From NCBI GenBank assembly GCA_944383925.1, contig CALWRM010000139.1, positions 1 through 44,052 on the forward strand: 44,052 nt of DNA, given 5' to 3'. The first letter of the stretch is position 1. Each line of letters starts with the position of its first letter. Below are positions 10,054 to 19,815 of the stretch, in pieces. A program made the translations under genes and the position numbers. The notes under the pieces were generated by a model. It worked only from the letters and a program-made list of their open reading frames with translations, did not search any database and had not been told where the DNA came from. This DNA is from an uncultured Clostridia bacterium. GTDB lineage: Bacteria; Bacillota; Clostridia; Christensenellales; UBA1750.

Positions 10054-10467
10054 ATGACCCCTTCCCGTTCCCTTCCCTCCACCCTGTATCATGCCCGGCT
10101 CCACCTCAGCGACCAGCGCCGCCTGCTCCCCTGTCCCGGGCTGCAGGGCCAGGTGCGCAAGGCCTATCCGCTGCTGAGCCAGTGCCACGTGCAGCTGGTG
10201 GGCTCCCTTGGCCCCGACGGCGAGGAGCGCACCCGCTGGCAATATCTGCTCTCTGTGCCGGTGATGCTGCTTTGCGAAAACTCCGCCTCCTGCGTTTCCC
10301 TGGGGCTATATCCCGAGCTTTCCACCCCGCTGCCGGAGGAAACCATGCGCTTTTCCGGCAACCTGCACCTGGACGTCTCCCTACCGGAGCTTTCCGCCTC
10401 CTTGGCCGGGCCGGAGCTTTATGAATTGCGCTTTTCCGCCAGGGTTTCGATGTATCTTTCGGTCTAG
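10054..10467 (+). CDS. Unrecognised 137-residue protein
   Basis: I do not recognise this protein. The ATG at 10054 has a clear binding site (GGAAAGGAAG, 8 bases upstream) and the frame uses codons like its neighbours, so it is likely real. There is no signal peptide and no clear membrane helix. The sequence alternates short hydrophobic and polar strands, which suggests a small beta-rich soluble domain. It stands alone between the divergent tig operon and the ABC-F gene, which has its own promoter only 18 bases downstream of this stop codon. Confidence 0.65.
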   Translation: MTPSRSLPSTLYHARLHLSDQRRLLPCPGLQGQVRKAYPLLSQCHVQLVGSLGPDGEERTRWQYLLSVPVMLLCENSASCVSLGLYPELSTPLPEETMRFSGNLHLDVSLPELSASLAGPELYELRFSARVSMYLSV

Positions 10468-10484: not shown

Positions 10485-10513
10485 TTGACAGGCGGGAAAG
10501 GGCCCTTTATACT
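10485..10513 (+). promoter_or_regulatory. Near-consensus sigma-A promoter of the ABC-F leader
   Basis: TTGACA (10485-10490), 17-base spacer, TATACT (10508-10513): 6/6 and 5/6. Transcription should start near 10520, leaving a leader of roughly 260 bases before the ABC-F start. Confidence 0.9.
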
Positions 10514-10547
10514 GGTGTCAGACTAGGGACGATAGGAGATGAAAGGG

Positions 10548-10568
10548 ATGTCGAAGGCCTCCTTGTAA
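10548..10568 (+). CDS. Putative 6-codon leader peptide upstream of the ABC-F gene
   Basis: A tiny ORF reading MSKASL then TAA, beginning at ATG 10548. AGGAG at 10534-10538 is 9 bases upstream. An earlier in-frame ATG at 10539 would give MKGMSKASL but touches the binding site. Its last codons (GCC TCC TTG) are part of the left arm of the terminator at 10555-10641, so a ribosome held on this ORF would block the hairpin. That is the known layout of antibiotic-sensing leaders of ABC-F resistance genes. No protein-level evidence is possible for so short an ORF. Confidence 0.55.
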   Translation: MSKASL

Positions 10569-10641
10569 GCGCGCACACAGCGGCCCCGTTTCAGCGGTTT
10601 GGCGCAAAATGGCCGTGCAAGCGCAAGGAGTCTGCCTTTTT
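10555..10641 (+). terminator. Attenuator-type terminator in the ABC-F leader
   Basis: Four short helices stack into one long arm: 10555-10564 with 625-630 and 634-637 (AGGC CTCCTT / AAGGAG..GCCT), 569-576 with 615-618 and 621-624 (GCGC GCAC / GTGC..GCGC), and 582-585 with 611-614 (GGCC/GGCC). A run of T follows directly (638-641). It lies inside the ABC-F transcript, before the gene. Confidence 0.65.
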
Positions 10642-10683
10642 CTCCCTCACTCTCGCCGCGTCCGTCGATGGGCGTTTCTTTCA

Positions 10684-10728
10684 GCGCGCGTAGGGAGAGG
10701 ACCATGCTTCCTGCGCGCGCCTTGTTTT
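10684..10728 (+). terminator. Second terminator-like hairpin that also masks a ribosome binding site
   Basis: GCGCGCG (10684-10690) pairs with CGCGCGC (10714-10720), and AGGGA (692-696) with TTCCT (708-712). CTTGTTTT follows. The GGGAGAGG in its left arm and loop is the best binding site for an alternative ABC-F start at 10704. Confidence 0.5.
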
Positions 10729-10781
10729 GCCCCGCCGCTCCGGGGCCCATGTCCGACCACGAAGGGAAAGGCGAATGCCCC

Positions 10782-12362
10782 ATGGCGCTCATCCAAATAC
10801 AAAACCTGAGCTTTCACTACGAAGGCAGTTACGACAACGTGTTCACCAACGCCAGTTTTCAGCTGGATACCGACTGGAAGCTGGGCTTCATCGCCCGCAA
10901 CGGCCGGGGAAAGACCACCCTGTTGCGCATCCTGGCCGGCGAGCTTGCCTATGCGGGCCGCATCGAAACGCCCGTGCGCTTCAGCCTCTTTCCGCCGGAG
11001 GTCACCCAGCCCCAGCGCAGCGCCCGCAGCGTCGCCAAGGGCTTGATCGGTCCCTACGAGGCCCTCGAGGCGGCGATGGCCGCCGCCCAGGACGACCCGG
11101 CCCAAAGCCAGGCCTACATCGACGCCCTGGACGAGTACTTGGCCCTGGACGGGTATGTCATCGACGCGCTGTTGGAAGCGGAAACCGGCAAGCTCGGCAT
11201 CCCTTCCGAGGCGCTGGAAAGGCCCTATGAGACCCTTTCCCAGGGCGAGCGCTCCAAGCTGCTGTTGGCGGCCCTCTTCCTGCGCAAGAACAACTTTCTG
11301 CTCATCGACGAGCCCACCAACCATCTGGACCTGGAGGCCAGGCAGCTGCTGGCGGCCTACCTCTCCGGCAAAAAGGGCTTCCTGCTGGTCTCCCACGACC
11401 GTTCCTTGCTGGATCCATGCATCGACCACGTGCTGACCATCGACCGGGACGGCCAGATCCGCCTGGAAAAGGGCAACTACTCCTCCTGGCAGGCCAACAA
11501 GGACCTGCAAGACCGCTTCGAACAGGAGGAAAACCAGCGCCTGCGCGGCGAAATCCGCCGCTTGCAACAAACTTCCCGGGAAAAATCCGACTGGGCCGAC
11601 CGCGTCGAGCGCAGCAAGATCGGCAGCCACAGCGCCGACCGGGGCTACGTGGGCGCCAGGTCCGCGGCCATGATGAAGAAGGCCAAGGCGCTGGAGCGGC
11701 GTTTGGACAAGGCCGTGGAGGACAAGTCCAAGCTGCTGCACAAGATCGAGGAGGCGGACGACCTAAAGCTCTCGCCCCTCGTCCACCCGTCCAAGCGGCT
11801 CTTCCGCCTGGAGCAGCTGGTGATCGATTACGGCAACCGGCCCCTGTTCTCCCCCATCAACCTGGACTTTTTTCAGGGGCAACGGCTCTGGCTTCGGGGC
11901 CGCAACGGCAGCGGCAAGTCCTCGCTGCTTCGCCTGCTCCTGGGGGAGGACGTTCCCCACAGCGGCCAGGTCTTCCTCGCCTCCGGGCTGACCATTTCCT
12001 TTGTTAGCCAGGACAGCTCCTTCTTGCGCGGCAGCCCCGTCGAGTACGCCCAGAGCCTGTCGCTGGATCAAAGCCTGTACCTGACCATCCTGCGCAAGCT
12101 GGGCTTCGAACGGGTGCAATTCGAAAAGGACATGGCCGATTTTTCCATGGGGCAGAAAAAGAAGGCGCTGCTGGCGGCCTCTCTTTGCCAAAGCGCCCAC
12201 CTCTACCTGTGGGACGAGCCCCTCAACTACATCGATTTGCTTTCGCGCGTGCAAATAGAAAACCTGCTGCTTAAGTTTCGTCCAAGCATGGTGTTCATCG
12301 AACACGACCGCAGCTTTTCCCAAAGGGTTTCCACGGAACTTCTTTCCTTGGAACCAATCTGA
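10782..12362 (+). CDS. ABC-F ATPase of the Lsa type (probable ribosome protection protein)
   Basis: 526 residues, two ATPase domains in one chain and no membrane helices, as in ABC-F proteins. Domain 1 has DTDWKLGF, then ARNGRGKTT (Walker A, residues 38-46; first glycine replaced by alanine), signature LSQGERSK and Walker B LLIDEPTNHLD. A charged linker follows. Domain 2 has RGRNGSGKSS, a divergent signature FSMGQKKK and LYLWDEPLNYIDL, close to Lsa-family resistance proteins (lincosamide, streptogramin A, pleuromutilin). These proteins bind the ribosome E site and dislodge the drug. The start at 10782 is chosen by family alignment; ATG 10704 in the same frame has a stronger binding site and would add 26 residues. 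The drug spectrum cannot be read from sequence. Confidence 0.88.
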   Translation: MALIQIQNLSFHYEGSYDNVFTNASFQLDTDWKLGFIARNGRGKTTLLRILAGELAYAGRIETPVRFSLFPPEVTQPQRSARSVAKGLIGPYEALEAAMAAAQDDPAQSQAYIDALDEYLALDGYVIDALLEAETGKLGIPSEALERPYETLSQGERSKLLLAALFLRKNNFLLIDEPTNHLDLEARQLLAAYLSGKKGFLLVSHDRSLLDPCIDHVLTIDRDGQIRLEKGNYSSWQANKDLQDRFEQEENQRLRGEIRRLQQTSREKSDWADRVERSKIGSHSADRGYVGARSAAMMKKAKALERRLDKAVEDKSKLLHKIEEADDLKLSPLVHPSKRLFRLEQLVIDYGNRPLFSPINLDFFQGQRLWLRGRNGSGKSSLLRLLLGEDVPHSGQVFLASGLTISFVSQDSSFLRGSPVEYAQSLSLDQSLYLTILRKLGFERVQFEKDMADFSMGQKKKALLAASLCQSAHLYLWDEPLNYIDLLSRVQIENLLLKFRPSMVFIEHDRSFSQRVSTELLSLEPI

Positions 12363-19367: not shown

Positions 19368-19554
19368 CTATATCCTGGGGTGTTCGTAACGCTTCGATTT
19401 TGAACCTACAGAACTCAAATGGAGTCCGCGTCGGACCTGTGAACATGCCAGGCCCCCCTCCGGGACGGGGAAGGCAGACGCACACCGCAGGACACCGCCC
19501 TGCTAGAATAGCAGGTGTCAAAATGAGGCGGACGGCACTTTGGGATATAGTTTT
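19368..19554 (+). ncRNA. ssrS: 6S RNA
   Basis: A ~183-base RNA closed by CTATATCC (19368-19375) and GGATATAG (19543-19550), followed directly by TTTTCTT as a terminator tail. Next to the closing stem are TGGGGTGTTCGTAACG on the 5' side and GGACGGCACTTTGGG on the 3' side, which line up with the conserved flanks of 6S RNA (compare GAUGUUCGCAAGCG and GGCGGCAUCUCGG in E. coli). The TTTTGAACC segment is also seen in Firmicute 6S. 6S RNA mimics an open promoter and binds the housekeeping RNA polymerase in slow growth. The region has a perfect promoter and no coding potential. Some Firmicutes have two 6S RNAs; only one is seen here. Confidence 0.85.
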
Positions 19555-19594
19555 CTTCCCTCCGATCAACGAGAAAAAACTTTTCCGTTGGGAC

Positions 19595-19623
19595 TTGACA
19601 GCTCTTGCCTCTTGTTGTATAAT
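19595..19623 (+). promoter_or_regulatory. Consensus promoter of the tRNA pair
   Basis: TTGACA (19595-19600), 17-base spacer, TATAAT (19618-19623): a perfect sigma-A promoter 35 bases before tRNA-Gln. Confidence 0.92.
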
Positions 19624-19658
19624 AGCCATCGTTGAGGCGCTTCGCCTCGATCATCCGT

Positions 19659-19732
19659 AGCGGAATGGTGTAACGGTAGCACCTACGACTCTGACTCGTA
19701 TTGCCTAGGTTCGAATCCTAGTTCCGCTGCCA
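19659..19732 (+). tRNA. tRNA-Gln(CTG)
   Basis: Acceptor AGCGGAA pairs with TTCCGCT (19722-19728), then G and an encoded CCA. D arm GTGT/GCAC, anticodon stem TACGA/TCGTA with loop CTCTGAC, giving anticodon CTG (reads CAG), and T arm CTAGG/CCTAG with TTCGAAT. All arms are intact. Confidence 0.95.
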
Positions 19733-19739
19733 ACCATAC

Positions 19740-19815
19740 GCCTCCATGGTCTAGTGGCCTAGGACACCGCCCTCTCACGGCGGCAACAGGGGTTCGAATC
19801 CCCTTGGAGGTGCCA
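19740..19815 (+). tRNA. tRNA-Glu(CTC)
   Basis: Acceptor GCCTCCA pairs with TGGAGGT (19805-19811; one G-T pair), then G and an encoded CCA. Anticodon stem CCGCC/GGCGG with loop CTCTCAC gives anticodon CTC (reads GAG). The T arm AGGGG/CCCCT is complete. It lies 7 bases after tRNA-Gln on the same transcript. Confidence 0.95.

Follow-up and report, generated by a model that had tools for sequence, protein, structure and literature searches.

In Bacillus subtilis, the leader of the ABC-F gene vmlR carries a short upstream ORF (uORF). Antibiotic-arrested initiation on this uORF prevents an anti-antiterminator, an antiterminator forms and intrinsic termination stops (PMC9226507). The inducers are drugs which stall initiating ribosomes, and mutation of the uORF start codon abolishes induction. 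The leader also has a NusG-dependent pause motif and a fourth hairpin which sequesters the Shine-Dalgarno (SD) sequence (PMC9226507). For cplR of Clostridioides difficile, the published report (PMC10201436) describes a mechanism like that of vmlR with translational control as a second layer, and induction by retapamulin and lincomycin. The same report gives a uORF predicted by uORF4u for lsa(A), with the peptide MAGN.

The window analysed here, a stretch of 44,052 nucleotides from an uncultured Clostridia bacterium, contains a leader of comparable design. Positions 10485-10781 precede an Lsa-like ABC-F gene and very probably serve it as a transcription attenuator that is operated by ribosomes and responds to antibiotics. 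This conclusion rests on the anatomy of the leader, its homology to a leader family and the covariation of three helices; the drug, the stall position and the working in the organism we infer. Relatives such as vmlR have already established the principle, to which the window adds a further case. Like vmlR, the window has a short uORF inside an anti-antiterminator, a competing antiterminator and an intrinsic terminator (both predicted in the case of the window), and precedes an ABC-F gene of the pleuromutilin/lincosamide/streptogramin A type (PMC9226507). The uORF peptides differ (MIN in vmlR, MSKASL in the window), and vmlR is likened to the window by architecture. cplR (PMC10201436) shares with the window a uORF-containing 5' hairpin, a 3' terminator and an antiterminator, the latter two being predicted for the window. 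It differs in its uORF (MRI), in a terminator that sequesters the SD of the gene, which the window's terminator does not, and in its product, which belongs to an ABC-F subfamily other than that of the window gene. According to the same report, lsa(A) falls in the subfamily of the window gene (ARE3, Lsa) and has a short uORF upstream, with a different peptide; MAGN was not seen in the leader set found in the present analysis.

The ABC-F ribosomal protection gene (10782-12362, forward strand, like all locus features given here) encodes 526 amino acids. As the sequence-only reading had proposed, it is Lsa-like: its best relative in the PDB, 7nhk, is Lsa(A), with E = 1.5e-109 and an alignment that spans residues 1-80 and 131-521. 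NCBIfam NF000355 (ribosomal-protection-like ABC-F) matched residues 4-522 with 427.9 bits, over its curated cut-off of 380. ABCF_Lsa_all was the top ABC-F subfamily with 594 bits, under its curated cut-off of 750, and the gene is therefore termed Lsa-like and not Lsa. The start at 10782 was chosen because MALIQIQNLSFHY aligns with residue 1 of Lsa(A); the open frame continues upstream. Starts at 10704 and 10749 were considered. The terminator loop contains 10704, and in the sister species (G001) the counterpart of this start is apparently out of frame, so that 10782 was preferred. The open frame of G001 has 531 amino acids, with little room upstream for an earlier start.

A sigma-70-type promoter, TTGACA-17-TATACT, is located at 10485-10513 (11/12 consensus matches against 0.2 expected). 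The leader ORF, MSKASL, occupies 10548-10568 (codons ATG TCG AAG GCC TCC TTG TAA), and its SD, AGGAG, lies at 10534-10538. Promoter, SD and six-codon ORF had all been picked out from the letters alone and are present; in the family model the SD is aligned with the conserved GGAGgUGAAAgGAUG and the start codon with the conserved uORF start. An in-frame ATG at 10539 (MKGMSKASL) was rejected as the uORF start, being only 0-1 nt from AGGAG, and the model aligns 10548. From sequence and homologous position, then, the window has a uORF with an SD, predicted to be translated, upstream of a resistance-type ABC-F gene. Segment R1 (10554-10576), the 5' arm of the anti-antiterminator in our folds, overlaps the 3' half and stop codon of the uORF, and its CUCCUUGU is aligned with the family's UUUCUUGC. 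Segment R2 (10615-10636), placed by folds and alignment, can pair with R1 as anti-antiterminator or with R4 as antiterminator; in the covariance-model alignment its GCAAGGAG (10623-10630) stands on the family's GCAAGAAA. It is followed by a pyrimidine tract (10637-10650), the counterpart of the family's UcuuUUucaCuc segment, which in fold and duplex computations is able to pair with the SD and start region of the uORF. Further downstream, hairpin computation and alignment, together with folds for R4, place R3 (10684-10696), the 5' arm of the terminator hairpin, and R4 (10703-10720), its loop and 3' arm. This terminator-like hairpin, 10684-10720, has a computed energy of -26.1 kcal/mol and is followed by an imperfect T-rich tract, CTTGTTTTG (10721-10729). 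R4 mimics the uORF region, so that R2 is able to pair with it.

A 137-amino-acid ORF without a Pfam match (10054-10467, forward strand) lies directly upstream of the promoter, and the sequence upstream of the leader appears similar by eye in G001, G005, G007 and G008. Elsewhere in the window, 19369-19812 on the forward strand holds a 6S RNA (RF00013, 52.5 bits) followed by two tRNA genes.

On this anatomy, the switch would work as follows. When no drug is present, ribosomes would clear the tiny uORF, R1 would be bound by R2, and transcription would end near 10729 at the R3:R4 hairpin and the T-rich tract behind it. A drug acting against the first steps of elongation would hold a ribosome on the uORF and cover R1; by analogy with vmlR and cplR, the inducer would be a pleuromutilin, a lincosamide or a streptogramin A. 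With R1 covered, R2 would pair with R4, the terminator would be blocked and RNA polymerase would read into the resistance gene.

The sequence-only reading had likewise proposed drug-responsive attenuation, which is the best-supported reading given the homologous leader family, but by another route: it took 10555-10641 for the terminator, with 10637-10641 as its U-tract, and let a ribosome stalled on the uORF block the terminator arm directly, with no antiterminator. The helix overlapping the ORF does exist. In RNA ending at 10645, 10554-10576 and 10615-10641 form about 22 expected pairs, and pairing of the uORF segment with sequence downstream exceeds that in dinucleotide shuffles (p = 0.027). 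Direct blocking is also compatible with TTTTTCT immediately 3' of this helix, and with the effect of a ribosome at the start codon: with the P site on 10548 and an assumed footprint of ~10528-10564, masking cuts R1:R2 from ~23 to ~4 expected base pairs (for the helix 10555-10641, from 22 to ~5). As a terminator, however, the helix fares poorly. Its stem has large internal loops, and the fold of RNA 10515-10650 is not exceptional, as 43 of 200 shuffles did equally well (z = -0.81). A T-run after R2 is absent in all five full-layout relatives of the window's family, and in the wider family this segment is pyrimidine-rich, often without a T-run. 10637-10641 aligns with this conserved pyrimidine segment. 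Every full-layout family member also has a cleaner T-tailed hairpin downstream, in the window the stronger 10684-10720, which the first reading overlooked. We thus regard it as unlikely that 10555-10641 is itself an intrinsic terminator, whether alone or as a second one. Most likely it is the anti-antiterminator, formed by the uORF with R2, and the predicted terminator is probably the second hairpin, 10684-10729. Both an anti-antiterminator that includes the uORF and a predicted intrinsic terminator between uORF and gene are then found in the window.

With the anti-antiterminator and downstream terminator so assigned, antiterminator formation is the weakest step in the window. When its segments were picked automatically, R2:R4 was indistinguishable from shuffles (p = 0.38); better values came from hand-chosen segments, and since statistics on such segments are optimistic they were replaced by the automatic choice. 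Support for the window's antiterminator therefore comes mainly from homology, that is, from the 94% of paired cells in the wider alignment and an exact 9-base triple in G001. In RNA to 10729 with only the start-codon ribosome masked, equilibrium favours the terminator (R3:R4 13.4 pairs, R2:R4 0.8), and the antiterminator prevails once the mask covers the whole of R1 or the RNA runs on to 10800. Under a ribosome mask, equilibrium folding produced the antiterminator for the window and for G001 but for none of G005, G007, G008 and G009; folding was therefore not taken as proof by itself.

The gene is present in 9 of the 11 genomes of the window's family (at the threshold used, G006 and G010 are without it), and six members, namely the window, G001, G005, G007, G008 and G009, share a common layout. 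This consists of a TTGACA promoter with a spacing of 17-18, an SD and short ORF, a region complementary to the ORF, and a GC-rich T-tailed hairpin before the gene. Promoter, uORF, R1:R2 and downstream hairpin are retained despite differing sequences and peptides. No leader peptide is conserved among MSKASL, MRKTV, MYYSLC, MHSSFC, MLSACC and MRFDR; even the sister species G001 has MRKTV where the window has MSKASL. Conservation of leader ORF and stem, named by the sequence-only reading as a check, thus holds for the position of the ORF and for the stem but not for the peptide. In G001 a 9-base word, GCGTTTTTT, serves in all three roles (R1, R2 as its complement, and R4). With hand-chosen segments, own-species pairing beat cross-species pairing for R1:R2, R2:R4 and R3:R4, with 2, 3 and 1 of 720 permutations as good.

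The full layout is absent in the orthologs G002 and G003. In these (leaders L113 and L115), which have another genomic context, uORFs MRKTILLPA and MRQNAPFFA lie 60-75 bases before the gene without a terminator, and in G003 the uORF codons CTCCTTT are able by eye to pair with the gene's AAAGGAG. The G003 arrangement suggests a switch to translational control. One might ask whether the window, too, works mainly by translational attenuation, with uORF-dependent refolding governing access to the ribosome binding site and not termination. Such a second layer is published for cplR (PMC10201436), and in G003 the uORF codons seem, by eye, paired with the ABC-F SD with no terminator between. The window hairpin, however, lies ~50 nt before the start codon used and excludes its ribosome binding site, and the conserved covarying hairpin has a T-rich tail, which makes mainly translational control here quite improbable. 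Control of termination remains the preferred reading for the window.

Eighty further Lsa-like loci were collected; 89 leaders entered a word search and 39 an alignment. Most of the 80 have a tiny ORF with an SD ~200 bases before the gene, and these uORFs very often end in Ser-Cys-stop (MRNISC, MYISC, MFKLSC, MDISC; M-x-S-C widely). The R1 word TTTCTTGC in the uORF is complementary to GCAAGAAA in R2 and is repeated in R4 before the T-run. An unbiased search, blind to ORFs and terminators, was made for any word that is followed by its reverse complement and then recurs. Of the 89 leaders, 25 have such a word of at least 8 bases, where shuffles predict 0.2; the triples mostly begin at the tiny ORF and finish at the T-tract. 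In the 39-leader alignment, standard pairs make up 95.8% of cells for R1:R2, 94.2% for R2:R4 and 95.3% for R3:R4, with two-sided changes in 14, 32 and 81 cells, respectively. None of 500 shuffles was as high as observed in cell counts or covariation scores for any of the three helices, and pairing dropped to 40-70% when partners were slid as a control. R2:R4 excludes R3:R4, and R1:R2 excludes R2:R4; this mutual exclusion is the predicted logic of anti-antiterminator, antiterminator and terminator. The two R2 sites, for R1 and for R4, overlap in 38 of 41 cases (25.3 expected), which is only mildly informative because the duplexes are long.

The 39 aligned leaders, which come from distant Lsa-like loci and do not include any of the window's family, served to build a covariance model. 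It matched the window end to end at 10527-10750 with 31.2 bits (next window match 11 bits), at E = 3.1e-06 in 324 kb and 4.2e-07 in the window, values which are rough because the calibration was shortened. In this match 10548 falls on the conserved uORF start and the T-run 10637-10641 on the conserved pyrimidine segment, while the terminator of the model is matched by 10684-10720 and CTTGTTTTG. The own-genome search with the model had overlooked the window, presumably owing to a coarse first look, and direct cmsearch recovered it. The model also matches G007, G009 and G004; no match over the full length was obtained in G001, G005 and G008. The elements of these three are divergent in sequence, and layout and complementarity were used to assign them. 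One could still suppose that the window holds the terminator of the upstream gene plus chance, with no drug-dependent regulation, since terminator-like hairpins and short ORFs are common and the local fold 10515-10650 is unexceptional. Against the model match and three covarying helices, and with promoter and leader co-occurring in relatives, such a coincidence is very hard to credit. By homology, the leader is a divergent member of a widespread family of putative RNA switches.

This leader family is apparently uncatalogued. Rfam gave no leader match at gathering score in the window or seven related loci, and a literature search outside subscription papers found the mechanism described but neither the leader family nor bacterial start-stop uORFs. 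A sample of 299 genomes from the phylum yielded model matches at E <= 0.001 in 27 of them. Eighteen of the best 20 matches stand immediately in front of an Lsa-like ABC-F gene, and one more precedes a truncated ABC-F remnant. In L145, a 145-bit leader match is followed by an ABC-F frame that loses similarity after ~27 codons (MSQIKVTNLTFAYDGSYDNLFEIVSFQ); here the switch has apparently survived the loss of its gene. Two weaker matches in G530 (L163 and L170, uORFs MIVTTC and MIITIC, terminator GGCTGTAAGAAGG..TTCTTGCAGCC-TTTTTT) do not precede ABC-F genes but a nucleotidyltransferase-like gene (weak Pfam Polbeta) in one case and a SnoaL-like gene in the other, and possibly constitute a small regulon.

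Where would the ribosome stall? Codons 3-6, as proposed earlier, do not agree with the relatives, in which the peptide is not conserved and some uORFs are reduced to AUG-stop. Leaders from Agathobaculum and Lacrimispora (L007, L026) have the uORF MK-stop or MKK-stop, with a conserved UUCUUG after the stop codon. Eleven Paenibacillus leaders (L014, L021, L038, L041, L042, L047, L055, L070, L072, L077, L080) have a bare ATG followed by TAA or TAG and then the R1 word TTTCTTGC, ~200-230 bases before the ABC-F gene and farther in L077. A twelfth by pattern, L009 from Cohnella, is ambiguous with MR-stop; 12 leaders compare with 0.005 expected in shuffles, and ATGTA is invariant in the ten start-stop leaders that were aligned. 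As R1 lies beyond the stop codon in the MK, MKK and AUG-stop leaders, the Ser-Cys ending is best explained as a side effect of RNA pairing. A peptide that is not conserved, RNA complementarity that is kept, and AUG-stop uORFs together argue for arrest at or just after initiation. The sensor is thus probably a ribosome arrested there and not at codons 3-6, and the start-stop leaders are possibly sensors of initiation arrest.

These observations can be joined in a single reading, which we consider plausible but tentative. Across Bacillota, and in relatives from Synergistaceae and Negativicutes, the leaders of Lsa-like ABC-F genes would all belong to a single uncatalogued RNA family, in which the peptide of the uORF does not matter. 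Ser-Cys codons would occur only because UCUUGC must pair with R2, the uORF would shrink to MK-stop, MKK-stop and finally AUG-stop in Paenibacillus, and the sensor would be the initiating ribosome itself. If this is true, a start-stop uORF reports any drug that freezes initiator tRNA in the peptidyl transferase centre.

For the bacterium, the window gives a clear comparative case of inducible ABC-F resistance built into the chromosome, with predicted inducing drugs, and it corrects which hairpin should be mutated in experiments. At the level of the family, the comparison sets apart what a leader has to keep, RNA complementarity and a start codon, from the peptide, which it need not keep. Whether these uORFs respond to arrested initiation and not to a peptide motif thus becomes a testable question.
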